DNA of 64,000 nucleotides from Lachnospiraceae bacterium (GTDB taxonomy: Bacteria > Bacillota > Clostridia > Lachnospirales > Lachnospiraceae), in assembly GCA_024687745.1 (NCBI GenBank), contig JAILEM010000182.1:1-64000 (forward strand), read 5' to 3'. Of this stretch, positions 1-24,816 are shown one piece after another (position 1 is the stretch's first letter; every line of letters begins with the position of its first letter). Below the pieces are notes generated by a model. It had not been told where the DNA came from. It did no database searches and saw only the letters and a list, made by a program, of their open reading frames with translations. The translations under genes and the position numbers were made by a program.

Positions 1-1367
1 AATAATTCAAAATCTATTTTAATACCCCGGGTTAAGATAAGCTTCCACGAACCATCTTGATTGTTTACCGCGGTAACTCCCTCCGGAAGATTACCAATAC
101 TGGTTATCGTATAACCGTCAACAGGTGTGATTGTTATTGTGGAAGTATCGGAACTATCTCCTTGTTTTCCAAGCCATTTATAACCATTATAATCGCAAAA
201 ATTCTCATTTGAACCATAAGTTAGCAAAGCATTATCAGAGTGGTTTATATTTACTTGGTAATACGCAAATCCATCTGCAACATTTGTCGTAACTGTACCA
301 TTATTATAATTGTATACGGTCCCCTTATTAGTAGTCACGGTTCCGTTATTGGTAGCGACTGTTCCGTTATTAGTGGTAATTACAGCATTAGCATTGTTAG
401 TAGTCACGGTTCCGTTATTGGTAGCGACTGTTCCGTTATTAGTAGTGATTGCAGCATTTTCGCTGTTAGTAGTCACGGTTCCGTTATTGGTACCGACAGT
501 AGCGTTATTAGTGGTGATCGTAGCATTTTCACTGTTAGTGGTCACGGTTCCGTTATTGGTACCGACAGTAGCGTTATTAGTGGTGATCGTAGCATTTTCG
601 CTGTTAGTAGTCACGTTTCCGTTATTTGTACCGACAGCTGCGTTATTAGTAGTGATTGCAGCATTTTCACTGTTAGTAGTCACGTTTCCGTTATTTGTAC
701 CGACAGCTGCGTTATTAGTAGTGATTGTACCATTTTCACTGTTAGTAATCACGGTTCCGTTATTTGTATCGACAGTCCCATAGTTAGTGGTTATCGTAGC
801 GCCGCTGTAGGATTCGGGGAGTTCAGGAAGTCCACTACTTTCATATTGGAAAACCTCTAATGTGCTAAGAGTAGTTCCGTATCCTGTAGATCCGATTCCG
901 CTTATATTATTATCATTTACACCGGCATTTAAGGTAACCTCGCCATTATTTGTACCTATATTTCCGTAGTTGCCACCTTCAAAGGAAGTTCCGCTTCCCG
1001 TATTGCTGCTATTTGTTTCTGTTATTCCTACGGTACCGTTATTTGTGGTAATTTCTCCGATATTAACAACTACTGTGCCACTTGTATCATTGGTTTTTAC
1101 CTCTCCGGTAAATGATTCTTCGCTATATCCATCTTCCTGTTTGTCATTAACGATCACGGTTCCTTCATTTTCAGTAATAGTACCCTGATTATCGCATACG
1201 GTTCCTTTATTGGTATCAACAGGTTCTTCCTTTGCAACAACATCTATCGTTTGATCGCTTTGAATGTCATTGTTTTCGTCTGCCATTATATACAAACTGC
1301 TCTGAGTCAGTGTGAGTGCCGTGATCACGGTAACTGCAATGACATTTTTCCAATTAAGTTTAATCAT
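1..1367 (-). CDS. Secreted repeat protein with TNNGTV-like repeats, C-terminus truncated by window edge
   Basis: Manual reverse translation from ATG at 1367 gives MIKLNWKNVIAVTVITALTLTQSSLYIMADENN (signal peptide) and stays open to position 1; central region is repeated TTNNGTVATNNGTVTTNSENAAI. Missing from the ORF track because it has no stop in the window. Confidence 0.85.
   Translation of the reverse strand, partial: MIKLNWKNVIAVTVITALTLTQSSLYIMADENNDIQSDQTIDVVAKEEPVDTNKGTVCDNQGTITENEGTVIVNDKQEDGYSEESFTGEVKTNDTSGTVVVNIGEITTNNGTVGITETNSSNTGSGTSFEGGNYGNIGTNNGEVTLNAGVNDNNISGIGSTGYGTTLSTLEVFQYESSGLPELPESYSGATITTNYGTVDTNNGTVITNSENGTITTNNAAVGTNNGNVTTNSENAAITTNNAAVGTNNGNVTTNSENATITTNNATVGTNNGTVTTNSENATITTNNATVGTNNGTVTTNSENAAITTNNGTVATNNGTVTTNNANAVITTNNGTVATNNGTVTTNKGTVYNYNNGTVTTNVADGFAYYQVNINHSDNALLTYGSNENFCDYNGYKWLGKQGDSSDTSTITITPVDGYTITSIGNLPEGVTAVNNQDGSWKLILTRGIKIDFEL
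331..800. repeat. Seven tandem copies of a 69-bp coding repeat (23 aa)
   Basis: GTAGTCACGGTTCCGTTATT-like units begin at about 331, 400, 469, 538, 607, 676 and 745, with exact 69-bp spacing. Confidence 0.9.
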
Positions 1368-13522: not shown

Positions 13523-14458
13523 TCATATATCCAATCTCAACTGCATATCTATCCAACTAGATTGATCGGCCTTGTGAATAGTGTCTTCATGCATAGTACC
13601 ACCTATCAGAAATGGTGATTTCGGGTCATGTTTTATAATATTTTCTCTTACCAATGCTGCATTTGTATTTGCATAACAGTATTTACAGAGATGACCGCAG
13701 GTATCATATGCCCCTATATCATTTCCTAGAAGACAGGTACATTCCCCGTCACGCTGGTTTTTCCTTCCCTTTTGTACGCAAAGTCTCTTATTAAGAGCTT
13801 TTTCATATGTTTTTACACTCATACAGCCTGAACAATCTGCTCCATATTGTTCCAGTTCAGTTCCTTCTGCACAGGGTTTCAGCGTCATTCCACATTTACC
13901 GGCTATATCTATGAAAGCTTTACCGATTGTTATTTTATCTTTTTGACAGACATTTCTTGCTTGGGGGAAATTGCGTTCGACTTTTTTATAAATATCGATA
14001 AAGCTGATAACGCAAGTCTCTGTGTACCCCTTCAGATTCTTTGCCATCTTCTCAAATTCAGATATATGCCATCCCACAGAGTGCTCGAGATCGACAAGTA
14101 TGGGATCATAACGCCATCCTATACTGTCTACTCCGACTATATCCGAAAGCTTTTTAAAGTCTTCCATTACTTTTTGTTTATCTGGAACATTTGGTTCAAT
14201 ATCCTTTCCGTAGGGAGTAATGGTTACAAACCAATACTGACCATAGGGCTTAAGATAGTCCATTTTTGTAAGCATCGGGGCTGGATTTTTTGTACAAAAT
14301 CCGATCAGATCGACAACATCAGGCGAAAGATCATACTTTGTTACCTGATATGGATTATAGGGATTTCTTACAAGTACATATCCTTCCTTTATACGGTTTA
14401 TCAGCCATTCGGAATAGAATGCCGGAATATCGGTTCGCATTCCTGTTTGAATGATCAT
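13523..14458 (-). CDS. DUF1848 family protein
   Basis: MIIQTGMRTDIPAFYSEWLINRI and conserved C-terminal Cys cluster CGHLCKYCYAN. Confidence 0.85.
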   Translation of the reverse strand: MIIQTGMRTDIPAFYSEWLINRIKEGYVLVRNPYNPYQVTKYDLSPDVVDLIGFCTKNPAPMLTKMDYLKPYGQYWFVTITPYGKDIEPNVPDKQKVMEDFKKLSDIVGVDSIGWRYDPILVDLEHSVGWHISEFEKMAKNLKGYTETCVISFIDIYKKVERNFPQARNVCQKDKITIGKAFIDIAGKCGMTLKPCAEGTELEQYGADCSGCMSVKTYEKALNKRLCVQKGRKNQRDGECTCLLGNDIGAYDTCGHLCKYCYANTNAALVRENIIKHDPKSPFLIGGTMHEDTIHKADQSSWIDMQLRLDI

Positions 14459-14462
14459 AACA

Positions 14463-15383
14463 TCACTCCCTTAATTCTATGAGTACTTCTCCTATATCTT
14501 TGTCAATACAGATGCTTCTGTGACTGATCTCGTTTGGACAGAACGCTTCTCCATAATTGATGCATCCATATATTGCCCGTTTATTTGCTAAAGTCATCTG
14601 CCAGAATGGATATTTTATTATACCCGGAGTATTGCCTCCTACACCGAGTTCAAGGAAAAGTATATGAAGATTCTTGTGTTTTCGGATATAATCCGAATAA
14701 GCGGCAGAAGCTTTTTTCCAGCCTTCATCTTCCACAAAAGAGTCATCTGCCCTGAGATTGGTTGTCATATCAGATCCGTCCTCAATACATTTAGGGATGA
14801 TTTCTGTCGGAATAGTCATCAATATGCCATTTTCAGGCATTTCAAATATACCATCACTGTTTTTTATAAACCCCTGGGCATCCATTGCTTTCATAACCCA
14901 TTCTTCATTGTCGAAGGTTTTATTAATTGATGGATTAACACTTTGAAACAAACCATAATCACCCTGAGTATAGAAGAGCTTTTTTTTATTAAATCCGGAC
15001 TTTTGGAAACAGTGATCTACATTTGTCGTGATAACAAAATAATCCTTATTTTTTACTAACTCAAAAAGTTCATTATAAACCGGCTTTGGTGCATCGAGAT
15101 ATCTGTTGATATAGATATATCTCGCCCAGTAAGCCCAGAATTCTTCCTTTGTTGAATATGGATAAAATCCGCCTGAATACATATCTTTAAAACCATATTT
15201 TAAAGAAAAATCAGAAAACCATTTATCAAAGCGTTCTCCATTGTATATAAAACCTGCGGATGTAGAAAGACCGGCACCTGCGCCGATCACTATAGCATCT
15301 GCATTTTCGATCTCATTTTTAAGTTTTTTTATCTTTTCTTCTTTTGTTTCATTATAATAATTATTTTTATATAAGTTTTTCAT
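14463..15383 (-). CDS. SirTM-type (macrodomain-linked) sirtuin, Sir2 family
   Basis: ADAIVIGAGAGLSTSAGF and TTNVDHCFQKSGF; lies directly downstream of a macrodomain gene. ORF opens at 15413 but the Met at 15383 (MKNLYKNNYYN) is a plausible start. Confidence 0.85.
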   Translation of the reverse strand: MKNLYKNNYYNETKEEKIKKLKNEIENADAIVIGAGAGLSTSAGFIYNGERFDKWFSDFSLKYGFKDMYSGGFYPYSTKEEFWAYWARYIYINRYLDAPKPVYNELFELVKNKDYFVITTNVDHCFQKSGFNKKKLFYTQGDYGLFQSVNPSINKTFDNEEWVMKAMDAQGFIKNSDGIFEMPENGILMTIPTEIIPKCIEDGSDMTTNLRADDSFVEDEGWKKASAAYSDYIRKHKNLHILFLELGVGGNTPGIIKYPFWQMTLANKRAIYGCINYGEAFCPNEISHRSICIDKDIGEVLIELRE

Positions 15384-16164
15384 AAATAATCCTGTCCTCA
15401 TCCGTAAAAACATTGAAGATTATTCTCTCTATCCTTTCAGGATTCCTGTCTAGCCACTTTTTTACAGTACCAACTGCTATTTCTGCCGCTCTCTCATTTG
15501 GAAATCGGAAGACACCGGTAGATATACAGCAAAAAGCTACACTCTGTAATCTGTTTTCTACGCACATTTTTAATATATTTATATAACAGTCAGCAAGATC
15601 CTTTTCCAACTCAGGGGTAAGTCTGTTCTGTACTATAGGTCCTACTATATGTATTATTTTCCTTGACGGAAGGTTATAAGCATCTGTTAATAAAGGAACT
15701 GCAGTTGGCTGCTCGTAGTCTTTTCCGTATTTTATTCTTAGTTTCGTCATTTTCCTGCTGCATTCAGCTCTTAACTGTATTCCTGCATATGTATGAATGC
15801 AATTATCAATACAGGTATGCATAGGGACAAAACAACCAAGCATTTGTGAATTGGCGGCGTTAACTATAGCATCTACTGATAGTCTTGTGATATCTCCCTG
15901 CCAGATGGATAAACTATTTTTGATGGCGGGTATATCTTTGGGTTCAACTATACCCTTTTCTTTTGCGCATTCCTTTAGATATTCATTTTGAATTTTAAGT
16001 ACCTCTGGAGAGATGGTTTTAGGCATACGGACATTCATCAGGGAACGTAGGATACGTTTCTTTTCCATTATATCCAAAGGAACATCAGGATTTTTATAAT
16101 CTTCTGAATCATTTATAAATTCTTTAATCAGATAGTTAAGTCGTTCAACCTGTTTCATATTCAT
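15367..16164 (-). CDS. Zn-type macrodomain protein (protein-ADP-ribose hydrolase)
   Basis: WQGDITRLSVDAIVNAANSQMLGCFVPMHTCIDNCIHTYAG and CCISTGVFRFPNERAAEIA. Confidence 0.9.
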   Translation of the reverse strand: MNMKQVERLNYLIKEFINDSEDYKNPDVPLDIMEKKRILRSLMNVRMPKTISPEVLKIQNEYLKECAKEKGIVEPKDIPAIKNSLSIWQGDITRLSVDAIVNAANSQMLGCFVPMHTCIDNCIHTYAGIQLRAECSRKMTKLRIKYGKDYEQPTAVPLLTDAYNLPSRKIIHIVGPIVQNRLTPELEKDLADCYINILKMCVENRLQSVAFCCISTGVFRFPNERAAEIAVGTVKKWLDRNPERIERIIFNVFTDEDRIIYEKLI

Positions 16165-16175
16165 AAAAACACTCC

Positions 16176-16601
16176 TTAAAGTGTAAATATTCTTTTTTTC
16201 ATGTCCGTATGAAGACTTGATAATTCTATCGTTACATCATCCAATGTAAAGGGTAACACATCTTTATTATCTTTGTTTTTGCATATTTTTTTAAGGATCT
16301 GACTTGAAGCAATAACCTTTTTTCTTATATCTGTATTATTAACGAACCTAACTTTGCCGTCAATGCGGATCCACTGAGTTGTCTCTCTGTCTGCTACCGT
16401 AATCTCAACATACGGATTCTTTAAAAGCTCTATATATGTCTGTTGGGTTTTCATCACATCAAACCAGAGTTTTCCGTCTTCCTCATACTTAAATTCGAAG
16501 GGCTTTACCTTGGGTTTTCCGTCCATTCCGATAACACCTATATATTGCATGGGGTGATCTTTGAGAATATCCAAAACTATATCCATATCTTTCCTGTTCA
16601 T
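16176..16601 (-). CDS. Pyridoxamine 5'-phosphate oxidase-like flavin-binding protein
   Basis: 141 aa; GKPKVKPFEFKYEEDGKLWFDVMKTQQTYIELLKNPYVEI split-barrel pattern. Confidence 0.8.
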   Translation of the reverse strand: MNRKDMDIVLDILKDHPMQYIGVIGMDGKPKVKPFEFKYEEDGKLWFDVMKTQQTYIELLKNPYVEITVADRETTQWIRIDGKVRFVNNTDIRKKVIASSQILKKICKNKDNKDVLPFTLDDVTIELSSLHTDMKKRIFTL

Positions 16602-17185
16602 TCCCTTACCACCTTCACTCTGCCCTCGCGTCTTTTTTTGATATCAGGATATTTTCCATTAACATATCCTAAAAGAACGAAACATTTGCATTCCATATTT
16701 TGGGGAATATCCCATTTTCTCAGATATTCCTGACCTTCAGGAGTCATAAATGTTTCTTCTCCTCTTGCCACAATGCATGATGCCAGACCTAGATCATAGG
16801 CCTCAAGTACCATATTTTCGGAGATACAAAATGCATCCGGAATGTTATAAAGAAAGTTTTTCTGGGCAAATACAGCAATAACTGTCGGGGCACCGTAGAA
16901 TCCGCTTTTTATGGAAGGATCATCGATCAAAGAGGGTTGTTCTTCAGATACATACCCGCCTGAAAGTCTATCTCTTCTCATACAACCGGCATTTAGTCTT
17001 CCTACCTTTTCTACGAGCTCTTTATCATTCATTACCAACAACATGGAACGTTGTCCGCCGCCGGCATTTGGAGCATACAGACCGGCTTCTATTATCTTAT
17101 TAAGATCATCTTCTCTGATCTTCTGATCTGTATATTTTCTGATCGAACGACGTTCTTTTATTATATCTAAAAGGTCCTTATTCAT
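16598..17185 (-). CDS. Nitroreductase family protein
   Basis: IKERRSIRKYTDQKI, GLYAPNAGGGQ, CIVARGEE, GYVNGKYP; overlaps the next gene by 4 bp. Confidence 0.88.
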   Translation of the reverse strand: MNKDLLDIIKERRSIRKYTDQKIREDDLNKIIEAGLYAPNAGGGQRSMLLVMNDKELVEKVGRLNAGCMRRDRLSGGYVSEEQPSLIDDPSIKSGFYGAPTVIAVFAQKNFLYNIPDAFCISENMVLEAYDLGLASCIVARGEETFMTPEGQEYLRKWDIPQNMECKCFVLLGYVNGKYPDIKKRREGRVKVVRE

Positions 17186-17204: not shown

Positions 17205-18272
17205 TTATCCTGTCATCAGCTCGTCCTTACAAGGGCTTGTTTCTAACCAACATTGGGGATCTTCGGCATAAAAATCACCATAAGTTCCCTTTGCCACTGC
17301 AGGACAGCCTCTGCACCAAGCCAGAAGCTTACATTTGCTGCATTTATTGAATTTTGAATAGTCACGGTATTCCTCAACCTTCTCTATCCATAAATCCTTC
17401 AGACGATCCTTAAATACATTTCCGACTCTGCTGTCTTTTACTCTTCTGCAGGCATAAACTTCACCGGTAGGAAGAATTGTAATATGACAGTTGCCACAGT
17501 TACACCCTCCATAGATCATGCCCTCTTTTGCAGTCTCAGGGATTCTGAAATCGCCAACTTCATATTGATAAAGTGTCCAGAGATGATCTTTAAGGGTAAA
17601 ATATGTAACACATTCAGGATCATTTCGGTATTTTTTGTATTTTTTATCACAGGCCTCCAACAGGGCTCTGTATTCAATGGGACTTATGCCTGTGCTTTTC
17701 TCATTACTTGTGGGAACATATCTTGCAAAAGCAAATACATCAGTTTTTGATTTTACTACAGTATCAATGATGTCAGGAATTTCTTTTATGTTCACTGAAG
17801 AAACGGTCGTCATGACTACAGATGTAATACCGGAATTATTGATCATTCCGATCTTTTCCACAGTTTCGTCAAAAGAACCCGGTTTTCTGAACCAATCATG
17901 TGTATTTCTCGTTCCGTCGATAGAAAGCTGATACTTGTCACACCCGTATTTCTTTAATCGTATAAGGATTTCATCTGTCAGATGAAAAGGATTACCAAGT
18001 ATAGTAAATGGAATCTCTTTCTTTTTTAATAATCCCATCAACTTCCAGAAATCAGGATGAAGGATCGGATCACCACCTGTGATGTAAAAATAAGGGGATC
18101 TTTTGTAAGTATTGCAGAATTCCTCGACATTTTTCACAACCGTTTTCATCTCATTCCATGTCATTGAATCCAGTTTCTTACATGTATTTTCCGCAAATAT
18201 ATAACAATGCTTACATCTTTGGTCACATTCCTCCGTTATATGCCATTGAAATGCAAAATATTGTCCCATCAA
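17205..18272 (-). CDS. Radical SAM/SPASM enzyme, probable ACG(X)-repeat peptide maturase
   Basis: CDQRCKHC (CxxxCxxC), ITGGDP, Cys-rich C-terminal SPASM region (CNCGNCH, CRR, CSKCKLLAWCRGCP, CW); adjacent to an ACG-repeat peptide. Confidence 0.88.
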   Translation of the reverse strand: MMGQYFAFQWHITEECDQRCKHCYIFAENTCKKLDSMTWNEMKTVVKNVEEFCNTYKRSPYFYITGGDPILHPDFWKLMGLLKKKEIPFTILGNPFHLTDEILIRLKKYGCDKYQLSIDGTRNTHDWFRKPGSFDETVEKIGMINNSGITSVVMTTVSSVNIKEIPDIIDTVVKSKTDVFAFARYVPTSNEKSTGISPIEYRALLEACDKKYKKYRNDPECVTYFTLKDHLWTLYQYEVGDFRIPETAKEGMIYGGCNCGNCHITILPTGEVYACRRVKDSRVGNVFKDRLKDLWIEKVEEYRDYSKFNKCSKCKLLAWCRGCPAVAKGTYGDFYAEDPQCWLETSPCKDELMTG

Positions 18273-18322: not shown

Positions 18323-18523
18323 TCAGGCTCCGCAAGCTGACGAAGGCTTTTCTTCAGGGGCTGAAGCACCACAAGCTGATGAAGGAGCTTCTTCAGGTGC
18401 TGAAGCACCACAGGCCGATGCAGGAGCTTCTGAGGGCTTCTCTGCTCCGCAAGCGCTCCCACAAGCTGAAGCAGCTTTTTCATTGTCATTTGCGTTCCAT
18501 CCTGATAAATTTGAAATTGCCAT
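18323..18523 (-). CDS. Cys-repeat RiPP-like precursor peptide (ACGX-type)
   Basis: MAISNLSGWNANDNEKAASACGSACGAEKPSEAPASACGASAPEEAPSSACGASAPEEKPSSACGA; strong RBS (GGAAAGG); immediately upstream of the radical SAM/SPASM gene. Confidence 0.85.
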   Translation of the reverse strand: MAISNLSGWNANDNEKAASACGSACGAEKPSEAPASACGASAPEEAPSSACGASAPEEKPSSACGA

Positions 18524-18649: not shown

Positions 18650-19564
18650 ATGAAGTTGACTACTGCCCAACTTGAATGCTTTTTAAGCCTTGCCGGTACA
18701 CTTAATTATATGAAAACTTCTGAACAGCTTGGTCTGACACAGCCAGCGGTTACAAAACAGATACAATCTCTGGAAGCCGAGCTTGGCTGTAAACTTTTTA
18801 ACAGAACCACAAGGTCTGTAGCACTTACACAGGTCGGAACAGCTTTTCTTACGGATGCCAGCTCAATGATCGACACCTTTTATCATTCGATGGAGCGAAT
18901 ATCAAGCTTTCAGGAAAGAGAGCGGCATGCACTGCGAATTGGCTATATGGATCCACATACTATAAATCTTATAAGCCGAATACTTAAACCGCTTTTAATA
19001 TCAAAATCCAATGTAATACCTGAATTTATTCATGATCAGACAAATGCAAACCTAAGTCGTCTTGTAAATAGTCAGCTGGATATAATCGTTGGAATGAAGG
19101 ATGCAAAATTCAGAGATTCGGATATTAGTTTTACCCTGCTTCATGATGAATATTTTGTCTGTGTCATGCATAAGGATCATCCGTTAATAAGAAAATTGAA
19201 AATACAAAAAAAGGATAGGGTAACTACGGGTGATCTTTGGGATTATCGCCAGATCATATCTATCCCTCCCTATCTGTTGGGAAATTTTTTTTCAAGAGGC
19301 CGGCACATTGTTCCGGTAAATGATGATATGGATAATGCGATCTGTTCCAATGCCAACGAGGCCTATGGTCTTCTTCTTGCCGGCTTTGGTTATGCTTATC
19401 TTCCCGAACATGAGGTCATGGAACACCCTGATCTTGTTGTTTTTAAATGGGAAGAGTCTCCTCATGCGCCATTTGGAATATATAGTAAGGCATCAGTTTT
19501 TAAAAACAAGTCAACATCAGAGTATATTTTTATAAAAAATGCAAAAGAGATATACAAGATATGA
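18650..19564 (+). CDS. LysR family transcriptional regulator
   Basis: LECFLSLAGTLNYMKTSEQLGLTQPAVTKQIQSLEAELGCKLFNRT; RBS aggagg. Confidence 0.9.
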   Translation: MKLTTAQLECFLSLAGTLNYMKTSEQLGLTQPAVTKQIQSLEAELGCKLFNRTTRSVALTQVGTAFLTDASSMIDTFYHSMERISSFQERERHALRIGYMDPHTINLISRILKPLLISKSNVIPEFIHDQTNANLSRLVNSQLDIIVGMKDAKFRDSDISFTLLHDEYFVCVMHKDHPLIRKLKIQKKDRVTTGDLWDYRQIISIPPYLLGNFFSRGRHIVPVNDDMDNAICSNANEAYGLLLAGFGYAYLPEHEVMEHPDLVVFKWEESPHAPFGIYSKASVFKNKSTSEYIFIKNAKEIYKI

Positions 19565-20930: not shown

Positions 20931-22652
20931 TTATTTAAGCTTTGTTGTAAGTCCATCATCAAACATCTGCTGTCTCTCATCGATAACTTCCTGATATCCG
21001 GCATCAAGATATTTCTGTGAAAGCTCATCGTAAAGTGCATCAAATTCTTCAGGCGCACACATTACAAGCTGATCACGATACTCAGGATAAACCTCTTCCT
21101 TAAGTGATGTTCCATAATCTGTAACAGATGTAAGAGCTCCACCAAACAGACAGTCTACATTTGCGTATCCTGCTTCATAGAGTGCTAACTGACCCTTGTA
21201 GTTTGCAAGAATGTCATCATAGAAATCCTGAGGAAGTCCCTGAGGATTGATTGCTGCTATATCGCTCTCGATATCTCCGAATGACTTAGATGCTGTAACA
21301 ACCATCCAATAGTCAACATTATTGTTATGTCCCTGCTGTTCGGGAAGACCTGTCTGATCTCCAACTGCTACAGGATTTCCGTTTTCATCATAGTTGAAGT
21401 TAACTCCTTCGATACCCCAGGTCATTGTGAAGAGTGTATCCTCCTGAGCCATCCACTCAAGATACATCTCACCGGCCTTTACTTCGTCTTCGGTTGCGTT
21501 GTTAGCAAATCCGATCATAGCACCAAAGATATTGTTGGGTCTGAATGCATTACTTGATCCCCAGGTATCATCCTGAATGAATTCGCTGCTTGAAACCTTA
21601 ACTCCGAGTTCTGCATCCGGATTTGCTTCATAGAAGGAATTAAGTACATCCATTGTTGACGATACATAACCTGACCACTCGAAAGCCTTACCATTGATAA
21701 AATCTGCATTTACATCATCTGTGCTTCTGAGATAGTATTCAGGATTTAAATATCCATCATTGTAAAGCTCGTTGTTCCATTTAAGAAGTCTCTTCTGTGC
21801 TTCTGTAGAAAGTGCAGGTATCTGATAATCACCGGTTGTGCACCATGTAGCCTCATCCTGAGGATAATCTCTGAACCAGTAGTTCTGATCAGCGCCTGCT
21901 CCGGCAACCTTAGATCCGCTCATAGGATATTCATGTCCGTTCTCAACCATCTTTGCAAGTGCATCTAAAAGCTCTGAGTTAGTTGCGGGATATGATCCGT
22001 CGAGACCTGCCTCTTTGAGCCAGTCCATACGATACCATGTAACGTATGTATAGTTGGTGTTACCATAAGGTCTCATACCCATAACGATGTAATCTTCATC
22101 CTCAAACTTTGTATAATCTGTAAGTCCGTTAGCTTCCATGTTCGACCAGTATGTAGGAGCTATAGCTTTGAACTGCTCAAGATCTATGGGCTGAAGGTAT
22201 CCGTCAGATGCCCATGTAGCAAGCTTATCATAGTCATATTCCATACAAAGAGTAGGAAGAGTGTTTGTTGAAGCAAGCATAGCATAGTCTGTCATTACGT
22301 CAGAACGTGTGATACCCACGTATTCAACCTTGATATTATACTTGTCACCAAAGTTCTCCTGAACCCAGTTTGTCCAATAGTTGTTTTCAACATCTGAGCA
22401 TCCGTTTCCGTTATCTCCTCTGTCGTAAACAGCAATTCTTAATGTTACTTCATCTGCAAATGGCTCCCATGCTCCGGCTTCTGCGGGTGCTTCAGCTGTT
22501 TCTTCGGTTGCTTCTTCTGCAGGTTCCTCAGCTGTCTCTTCTGCTGCTTCGCTTCCGGTTTCTGCAGGTGCTGCTGCTCCTGCTCCGCCGCAGGCTGTAA
22601 GTCCAATTACCATGCTTGCTGCAAGTAATGCACTTATTAATTTCTTCTTCAT
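20931..22652 (-). CDS. ABC transporter sugar-binding lipoprotein (LplA-type)
   Basis: Lipobox GLTACGG, Ala/Glu/Pro-rich linker, 573 aa solute-binding protein followed upstream by two permease genes. Confidence 0.85.
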   Translation of the reverse strand: MKKKLISALLAASMVIGLTACGGAGAAAPAETGSEAAEETAEEPAEEATEETAEAPAEAGAWEPFADEVTLRIAVYDRGDNGNGCSDVENNYWTNWVQENFGDKYNIKVEYVGITRSDVMTDYAMLASTNTLPTLCMEYDYDKLATWASDGYLQPIDLEQFKAIAPTYWSNMEANGLTDYTKFEDEDYIVMGMRPYGNTNYTYVTWYRMDWLKEAGLDGSYPATNSELLDALAKMVENGHEYPMSGSKVAGAGADQNYWFRDYPQDEATWCTTGDYQIPALSTEAQKRLLKWNNELYNDGYLNPEYYLRSTDDVNADFINGKAFEWSGYVSSTMDVLNSFYEANPDAELGVKVSSSEFIQDDTWGSSNAFRPNNIFGAMIGFANNATEDEVKAGEMYLEWMAQEDTLFTMTWGIEGVNFNYDENGNPVAVGDQTGLPEQQGHNNNVDYWMVVTASKSFGDIESDIAAINPQGLPQDFYDDILANYKGQLALYEAGYANVDCLFGGALTSVTDYGTSLKEEVYPEYRDQLVMCAPEEFDALYDELSQKYLDAGYQEVIDERQQMFDDGLTTKLK

Positions 22653-22748
22653 TTTGTTCCTCCTTTTTTTACTTATAAACTTTATATAGCTAACCCAAAC
22701 GGGTTACTTTTATAATTATCAGCTTTGTATTACGTATATGGATCAGCT

Positions 22749-23684
22749 TTAGCCTTTTACCGCACCTACCATTGTACCCTTAACAAAATACTTCTGAAGG
22801 AAGGGGTAGATTATTATGATAGGCACTGTAACAAACATTATACATGCTGCCTGAAGCACTTCAGGAGTAGTCTGAACAACTCCACCCGTATCTGCAAGAG
22901 AAGCATTCTGCGCCTCGGTAGCTGATGCAACAAGCTGATAGAGCTTGTACTGTATAAGCTTTAATTCCGATGATCTTGTATAGTACATATTATCAGCATA
23001 TGCGTTCCACCTTCCCACAGCATAGAATAAAGATAATGTGGCTATTATAGGCTTAGAAAGCGGAAGCACGATCTTCCAGAGTATCTGTATATTTGTAGCT
23101 CCATCCAAAAATGCCGATTCCTCCAAACTATCCGGAATAGTACTCTGGAAAAAGTTTTTCATTATAAGCATGTTGTATGGCGAATAAATGAGCGGAAGTA
23201 TCAGAACCCAAAAAGTATCAAGTATGTGTAACTGATAATATAATATGTACTGAGGTATGATACCGGCGGTGAAGTACATGGGAACCATTAGAATAAAGGA
23301 TAATGTACTCCTGCCCTTAAGTCTCTTCTTGGAAAGGGGATAAGCCGCACATGTACATACTATCATTCCAAGTATCGTAAATACCAGAGTTACAACTACG
23401 GAAAAGAGCATTGAATATGTCATGGACTCGTCCGCAAAAACCTGCTTAAATGCATCAAAGGTAATGTCCTTAGGCCAGAAATATACGGATTTTGACATTA
23501 CAGCCGTATTTCCTGAAATTGATTTTGCAGCAACATGTATAAAAGGGAATACGCAGGTTGCGCAAAGAATTACAATAACAAGGATCATAAGGGCATCACT
23601 TATCTTGAACTTATTGACAGCATTAGCTCCGCCGGATGAAAAGTTTTCTTCTGTTTTCTTTTTTACATCAGTTGTATTAGCCAT
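22749..23684 (-). CDS. Carbohydrate ABC transporter permease (LplC-like)
   Basis: MalG-type EAA loop ESAFLDGATNIQILWKIVLPLSKPIIAT. Confidence 0.9.
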   Translation of the reverse strand: MANTTDVKKKTEENFSSGGANAVNKFKISDALMILVIVILCATCVFPFIHVAAKSISGNTAVMSKSVYFWPKDITFDAFKQVFADESMTYSMLFSVVVTLVFTILGMIVCTCAAYPLSKKRLKGRSTLSFILMVPMYFTAGIIPQYILYYQLHILDTFWVLILPLIYSPYNMLIMKNFFQSTIPDSLEESAFLDGATNIQILWKIVLPLSKPIIATLSLFYAVGRWNAYADNMYYTRSSELKLIQYKLYQLVASATEAQNASLADTGGVVQTTPEVLQAACIMFVTVPIIIIYPFLQKYFVKGTMVGAVKG

Positions 23685-23697
23685 CTTTCAGTCCCTC

Positions 23698-24630
23698 CTA
23701 CAGAAGTCCGTCTTCGCCAAGCTTCTTGGCAATTCTGTCTGATATAAGAACCAGTATCACACCTATTACAGACTGGAACAGACCTACTGCCGTGGCCATA
23801 CTGAACTTATTGTTTCCTATACCTTTATTATAAATATATACGGCCAGCTGATACTGGAATTCCTTAACCTGTGTATTGCCAAGAGCTGTAAGTCTCTCAA
23901 GATTACTTCCCATTACCCTTCCAAGATTCATGATAAGAAGAGTAACAATAGTACTTTTAATACCGGGTAAGGTTATATATATGATCCTCTGCCATCGATT
24001 TGCCCCATCAATCATAGAGGCTTCATACTGTTCTCCGCTTATACCTGTTATAGCGGCCAGATATAAGATAGTTCCCCATCCCATTGACTGCCAGACACCT
24101 ATAAGCAGATACGTGATGGCCCAATGCCATTTTTCATTTAAAAAAGGAATCCCTTCATCTATTATCCCAAGATTCATAAGTGCTATATTTACAAGTCCGC
24201 TGGTAGGCTTAAACATTGTAAGTGCGACACTGCCTATGATCGCCCATGAAAGGAAGTGTGGCAGATATAGAATCGTCTGTGAGACTTTCTTGAATCTTTT
24301 AAATCTGAGCTCATTTAAAATAAGAGCAAGGATTATCGGCATAGGAAATCCTATAAGAAGATCCAGCACATTAAATACAAGTGAATTTCTAAGCGCTCTT
24401 TTGAAGTCTGCATCTTTAAACACTTTTCGGAAGGTGTCCCATCCGACCCACTTACTACCTGCATATCCTTTTGCCGGCTTATAATCCATAAACGCCATTC
24501 TAAGTCCGGGATATGCACCGAAACTGAATATGATTACCATAATGAGCGGTATAAGAAGCAGTAAATATAACTGCCAATCTCTTTTTAAAGCCTGTTTCCA
24601 ACTTGTTTTAGTTTTAACTGTAGCTTTCAT
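23698..24630 (-). CDS. Sugar ABC transporter permease (LplB-like)
   Basis: EASMIDGANRWQRIIYITLPGIKSTI; start moved to Met at 24630, preceded by aggaagg. Confidence 0.88.
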   Translation of the reverse strand: MKATVKTKTSWKQALKRDWQLYLLLLIPLIMVIIFSFGAYPGLRMAFMDYKPAKGYAGSKWVGWDTFRKVFKDADFKRALRNSLVFNVLDLLIGFPMPIILALILNELRFKRFKKVSQTILYLPHFLSWAIIGSVALTMFKPTSGLVNIALMNLGIIDEGIPFLNEKWHWAITYLLIGVWQSMGWGTILYLAAITGISGEQYEASMIDGANRWQRIIYITLPGIKSTIVTLLIMNLGRVMGSNLERLTALGNTQVKEFQYQLAVYIYNKGIGNNKFSMATAVGLFQSVIGVILVLISDRIAKKLGEDGLL

Positions 24631-24816
24631 ATTTTTGGATTCCTTCCTGTTCTTATGGCTAAATATTAGATTAAATGTTTTTTCATATCTATTCACTTAG
24701 TCGAAAATAATATGCATATTCGACCATTTATTTTCAAGCAAATCATAAATTATGTTTATTTTTAATAATAATCATGCCTATTATTTGTGAATATTTCACA
24801 GTAATCGTTTAAGTTA

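Follow-up and report, generated by a model that had tools for sequence, protein, structure and literature searches.

Cysteines of RiPP precursors are substrates of several SPASM-type radical SAM (rSAM) enzymes. SbtM, which acts in the SbtM/SbtA thio(seleno)oxazole RiPPs (TIGR04082), turns Cys into a thiooxazole with the loss of four hydrogens (PMC11002830), and PapB, of the freyrasin ranthipeptides, joins Cys to the acidic residue in Cys-X3-Asp/Glu and tolerates X0-6 (PMC9413430). Class M sirtuins (SirTM), in turn, are marked by a QG motif that replaces the HG of deacylases (PMC4518038). The SirTM of S. aureus and S. pyogenes ADP-ribosylates the lipoylated carrier GcvH-L (PMC11490716), and the extended SirTM operon of these species comprises GcvH-L, LplA2, SirTM, Zn-Macro, OYE and LLM (PMC4518038, PMC11490716). 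What other SirTM/Zn-Macro systems act on is, by the account of the SirTM authors, not known (PMC11490716).

The ACGX-repeat peptides and their rSAM enzymes (NCBIfam TIGR04341 and TIGR04340) form a family that is named, yet has no description of function in the searched literature, even though gut and rumen Clostridia commonly carry it (one scan confirmed more than 500 relatives). No paper on the peptide or the enzyme was found there by name or accession, subscription papers lying mostly outside that literature, and those matches for 'ACGX' that could be placed were accession numbers and other abbreviations. Here we examine a member of this family in a window of 64,000 nucleotides, the whole stretch of Lachnospiraceae DNA that was analysed (contig JAILEM010000182.1). 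Within this family the pair of peptide and enzyme stands recurrently in one operon with redox enzymes and a reversible ADP-ribosylation pair, an association that appears to be new; no paper joining the ACGX and SirTM systems was found in the searched literature. The best explanation of the locus, to which we give an even chance, is that of an ACGX RiPP that is modified at its cysteines by its own SPASM enzyme and retained in the cell for a redox or electrophile response.

The ACGX precursor and its maturase

The precursor (18323..18523, minus strand) is a 66-aa ORF, as the earlier note had reported, with its ATG start at 18523, and an AGGA-like ribosome site lies directly 5' of this ATG. Behind the leader MAISNLSGWN, all five cysteines (positions 20, 24, 37, 50 and 63) lie in ACG, again in agreement with the earlier reading. 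The spacing of the ACGs consists of one 4-residue step and then three exact 13-residue steps. The proposed 13-aa tandem repeat is thus right in its period but needs correction in its extent, the full 13-aa steps being only three, and the first two ACGs make up the 8-residue unit ACGSACGA, the common unit of the ACGX family. None of 200,000 residue shuffles of the peptide contained five ACG (the maximum was three), and Tandem Repeats Finder independently calls a 39-bp array (2.5 copies, 86% matches, score 142). The peptide holds one CGxxCG pair and three isolated Cys, and its last ACGA is the end of the chain, so that no residue stands downstream as a link partner for that Cys. A scan of the intergenic regions for promoters and terminators returned only consensus-level matches, near the shuffled expectation.

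The maturase rSAM_ACGX (17205..18269, minus strand) starts at ATG 18269 behind an AGGAGG, the ORF caller listing TTG 18272; counted from this ATG it lies 53 nt downstream of the peptide, close to the distance of about 50 bp given before. It carries the Pfam domains Radical_SAM and SPASM (model pLDDT 82.8), with the invariant CxxxCxxC at C13, C17 and C20 and the invariant SPASM cysteines C254, C256, C272, C308, C311, C317, C320 and C338. Both partners score above the curated NCBIfam cut-offs, the peptide with 38.1 bits against 28 for TIGR04341 and the enzyme with 582.8 bits against 400 for TIGR04340 (radical SAM/SPASM domain protein, ACGX system); the filing in the ACGX-repeat class, which the earlier note had offered together with an HMM search as its check, is therefore correct. 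To judge from these scores and from the adjacency of the two genes, which is that of the family, the window pair is an ordinary member of it.

A scan of named genomes yielded 581 confirmed relatives, and the neighbourhood survey used the best 80, a sample in which near relatives of the window enzyme are consequently overrepresented; their hosts are nearly all gut and rumen Clostridia, Lachnospiraceae and Oscillospiraceae among them. Within the host order, 27/392 genomes hold the enzyme at E <= 1e-100, 26 of these 27 above the cut-off, and within the window's genus the enzyme occurs in 1/37 genomes. The earlier proposal hinged on a peptide being conserved beside homologous enzymes, and such a peptide is there: a first automated pass with an ORF filter found a precursor with ACG units directly 5' of the enzyme at 90 of 104 loci, in the same peptide-enzyme order as in the window. 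When the frames of the loci missed by the filter were read, most turned out to have a precursor (lost by ORF trimming) or to be cut by a contig end, and only at two loci (L053 and L055) was the precursor absent despite enough upstream sequence.

The 90 precursors share a leader of the MALSNLxGW type (75 begin with MAL and 85 have a Trp before the first Cys) and cores from which aromatic residues are almost absent. The number of Cys ranges from 2 to 15 per precursor, with Gly next in 557 and Ala before in 529 of the 563 cysteines, and the precursors contain 237 CGxxCG pairs, in which the C-x3-C spacing is fixed while the number of units varies. The commonest repeat unit in the family is of the type ACGSACGAGDKPEEKP. 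The window peptide, with units ACGASAPEEKPSS, belongs to a small group shared with a Butyrivibrio MAG (enzyme 85% identical), in which single ACG units prevail and the Asp at +4 is missing; compared with the norm of TIGR04341, this clade lacks the common C-x3-D and has mostly single ACG units with an APEE linker.

Probable chemistry at the ACG cysteines

That the peptide itself is modified is suggested by its linkage to the enzyme, and the comparison with other maturases bears on the kind of modification. After that of its own family, the best-scoring HMM for the maturase is that of SbtM (TIGR04082), likewise a SPASM rSAM enzyme acting on Cys, with 180.3 bits, followed by a model with 132. The window enzyme nevertheless falls outside the SbtM family, whose cut-off is 350 bits, and leaves the first 197 model positions unmatched, i.e. 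it is without the N-terminal extension. A search for SbtM itself in 399 genomes of the host phylum found none, an absence that is unproven since the search had no positive-control match. The model of the PapB ranthipeptide maturase (NF047865) gives 70.7 bits against a cut-off of 340, which places the enzyme outside that family as well. The nearest solved structures to the predicted fold are SkfB, SuiB and anSME, all with TM 0.6-0.7; these matches are about equal and reflect the general SPASM fold, so the structure gives no choice of chemistry.

Around the cysteines of distinct precursors, the near-invariant features are Ala at -1 (512/544), Gly at +1 (539/544) and a small residue at +2. Of the 312 cysteines across the family that close their unit or are its only one, 260 (83%) are followed by an Asp or Glu at +4, which is missing from the window peptide and six others. 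Of the modifications suggested in the earlier note, thioether cross-links receive no specific support, only the residues at -1, +1 and +2 being near-invariant. A Cys-Asp (+4) bond as the universal cross-link is ruled out for the window peptide, where the acceptor is missing.

The lack of a downstream partner for the final Cys, together with the lack of an invariant acceptor, argues for a chemistry within the Cys and its preceding amide, and a Cys-centred radical modification that would need no cross-link partner is the most likely reading of the sequences. Weighed against it is a ranthipeptide-type reaction, in which the enzyme would join, in the manner of PapB, the thiol of each Cys with an acidic residue that is mostly found four positions further along (Asp at its beta carbon, Glu at its gamma carbon). 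Like the PapB/freyrasin system, the locus combines a SPASM rSAM enzyme with repeated Cys, and the precedent of Cys-X3-Asp/Glu linkage with its X0-6 tolerance (PMC9413430), the frequency of acidic residues at +4 and the 70.7 bits obtained with the PapB model all speak for this possibility. C-x3-D/E motifs, present in most of the family, are however absent from the window peptide, and no C-X3-[DE] follows a last or single Cys in that peptide or in 6 of the other 85 distinct precursors; in addition, no acceptor comes after the final Cys of the window peptide, the first Cys of every CGxxCG pair has Cys and not Asp at +4, and the PapB score is far under its cut-off and under the SbtM score. A PapB-type Cys-Asp thioether would hence fit most of the family better than the window peptide, and we regard it as unlikely, though worth keeping in view. 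Improbable, in our estimation, is a metallothionein-like metal or thiol buffer, unmodified or lightly modified, with CGxxCG pairs as dithiol sites and the rSAM enzyme acting elsewhere. The 237 pairs with their fixed spacing and the variable number of units (2 to 15 Cys) would suit such a buffer, but the peptide stands almost always directly beside one SPASM enzyme family, its conserved leader would be superfluous in a simple metal buffer, and the window peptide offers only one pair against three isolated Cys.

The operon and its recurrence

Five further minus-strand genes come after those of the peptide and enzyme, coding in turn for a nitroreductase, a PNPOx-like protein, a macrodomain, a sirtuin and a DUF1848 protein; each overlaps slightly with the gene before it or is separated from it by no more than about 20 bp. 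This operon context (SirTM, Zn-Macro and flavoproteins) was passed over in the earlier note and is the most informative part of the locus. It was compared over 45 ACGX loci (44 named and the window) with a downstream flank of 4.5 kb or more; many contigs break off close to the locus, which affects the resulting counts, and the labels come from BLAST to single references, such that those for regulators and ADH may include paralogues.

The nitroreductase-family flavoprotein (16598..17185, minus; Pfam Nitroreductase, 73.6 bits) is a neighbour in 24/45 ACGX loci, and the place of the PNPOx-like flavoprotein (16176..16601, minus; Pfam PNPOx_N, 42.2 bits) is taken in 23/45 by a Fer4-fused PNPOx homologue. 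The following gene (15367..16164, minus) encodes a zinc-type macrodomain (Zn-Macro), predicted to be a protein-ADP-ribose hydrolase, which belongs to NF003163 (306 bits, cut-off 272), matches PDB 8rsi (4e-72) and 5kiv (8e-55) and has the zinc-binding loop LGCFVPMHTCIDNCIH. Its companion (14463..15413, minus), whose true start may be an internal ATG, matches the SirTM structure PDB 5a3a, a SIR2 family protein (7e-48), and is a SirTM, predicted to be of the ADP-ribosyltransferase type, by the QG that replaces HG (YTQGDYG) and by the adjacent macrodomain. The last gene of the run encodes the DUF1848 protein (13523..14458, minus; Pfam PF08902, 331.9 bits), a variable member of the operon, as it is found near only 3/45 ACGX loci. 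On the other side of the peptide, a divergent LysR-type protein (18650..19564, plus; Pfam HTH_1 and LysR_substrate) is a candidate regulator of the operon.

Elsewhere in the window, 20931..24696 reads by eye as a solute-binding protein with two permeases, a probable carbohydrate ABC transporter unrelated to the ACGX pair, beyond which lie an AraC-type regulator and glycan-processing genes. An ORF at 3..1367 (minus), open at the window edge, combines a signal-like N terminus with long imperfect repeats TTNNATVGTNNGTVTTNSENA that have a DNA period of 69 bp in 6.5 copies; its product resembles a repeat protein of the surface or adhesin type.

With its QG-motif SirTM and Zn-Macro beside flavoprotein oxidoreductases, the run resembles the extended SirTM operon (PMC4518038, PMC11490716). 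It differs from that operon in lacking GcvH, in containing an rSAM-linked Cys peptide, and in having nitroreductase and PNPOx where OYE and LLM are found. The redox context recurs: a nitroreductase, PNPOx or Zn-ADH is present in 42/45 loci, and a regulator of the HxlR, LysR or Rrf2 type in 34/45 (HxlR-type in 29/45, LysR in 6/45). SirTM is found in 26/45 ACGX loci and together with a macrodomain in 18/45.

At the level of genomes of the host order, SirTM occurs in 19/27 with the ACGX enzyme and in 104/365 without it (Fisher odds ratio 6.0, p = 2e-5, in tests that ignore shared ancestry), and 13 of the 19 genomes with both carry them on a single contig within a few kb of each other. In a SirTM tree of 134 rows (FastTree, many weak branches), the ACGX label requires 24 changes, at least 10 of them on well supported branches, which indicates that the pairing was made or lost repeatedly. 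Among 98 SirTM loci from the order, a macrodomain is near 82, a Fer4-PNPOx protein near 37 and the ACGX enzyme near only 9, so that SirTM loci do not require the ACGX pair. Within the window's genus SirTM is found in 4/37 genomes, and this count, taken with the single genome holding the ACGX enzyme, makes the whole run look acquired, or lost by most relatives.

Proposed retention in the cell and a possible SirTM target

The proposal of a retained redox peptide can be put as a sequence of steps. The N-terminal leader of the MALSNLxGW type would recruit the maturase, which would move along the chain and oxidatively modify the Cys of each Ala-Cys-Gly unit, most likely within the residue and its preceding amide, as SbtM does in forming its thio-oxazole, and less likely through a bond to a remote side chain. 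The product would not be exported. Remaining inside, it could serve as a redox or electrophile-reactive carrier with multiple sulfur-based sites, whose production and recycling would go together with the operon's flavoproteins under the control of redox regulators, while the SirTM/Zn-Macro pair alongside would add and remove ADP-ribose on some partner. In this regard, 34/36 HxlR proteins of ACGX loci have a Cys followed by Pro or Ser near the N terminus; HypR, YodB and CatR carry their redox-sensing Cys in such an arrangement, and their regulons include the nitroreductase YodC (PMC6943732). Across 68 loci, the enzyme has no recurrent neighbour from any transporter or peptidase family, although an exporter or protease encoded elsewhere is possible. 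The Cys arrangement of the HxlR proteins, which is that of thiol-sensing regulators, together with this lack of a recurrent exporter or protease, leads us to read the product as a retained intracellular sulfur peptide that may serve in a redox or electrophile response. The operon context gives the ACGX pair a testable role, and if only the redox link holds, it would still point to a retained intracellular RiPP and not to an antibiotic.

A secreted RiPP, either a bacteriocin or a signal, with its exporter and protease encoded elsewhere, would agree with the small size of the peptide, its leader/core layout and its patchy distribution (1/37 genomes of the genus). We consider it very improbable: the 68 loci offer redox enzymes, redox regulators and SirTM/Zn-Macro instead of a recurrent transporter or peptidase, and a double-Gly leader end was not seen in the precursors when inspected by eye. 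A stronger claim, compatible with the retained redox peptide, is that the modified ACGX peptide is the ADP-ribose acceptor of the operon's SirTM, in the way of lipoylated GcvH-L. It draws on the recurrent ACGX-SirTM linkage, on the acidic residues in most repeats, on the gap in SirTM target knowledge acknowledged in PMC11490716, and on GcvH being absent from the window, the 67 other ACGX loci and the 98 SirTM loci (BLAST with four GcvH references). Nevertheless, the ACGX enzyme is missing from the vicinity of 89/98 SirTM loci of the order, and SirTM from that of 19/45 ACGX loci, meaning that neither needs the other, and we hold the claim to be doubtful. No more probable is its fuller form, in which the peptide would be a ribosomally made sulfur redox carrier replacing GcvH-L, switched off by SirTM and back on by Zn-Macro, that serves the operon flavoproteins in oxidative or electrophile stress. 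If true, the peptide would be a RiPP subject to reversible ADP-ribosylation, and SirTM would have a target besides GcvH-L; the searched literature describes neither. It would also be a candidate answer to the question raised by the SirTM authors, of what SirTM/Zn-Macro pairs target beyond the GcvH-L operon. GcvH itself is rejected as the carrier in ACGX operons, none having been found at the loci.

Some features of the SirTM loci deserve mention in their own right. The Fer4-fused PNPOx is the commonest partner of SirTM/Zn-Macro in the order after the macrodomain (37/98 loci, L142-L241), and the available excerpts of the two SirTM papers (PMC4518038, PMC11490716) do not mention it. Several loci (L239, L238 and others, in G173, G269 and G108) have at least two SirTM-like genes side by side, 30-40% identical to that of the window, some of them without a macrodomain match nearby. 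At one further locus (L027, G345:C11:480081-483083), one in-frame stop is present in the ACGX enzyme and one in the SirTM that shares its contig (TGA and TAG), a finding that would fit a joint decay of both genes or a sequencing error.
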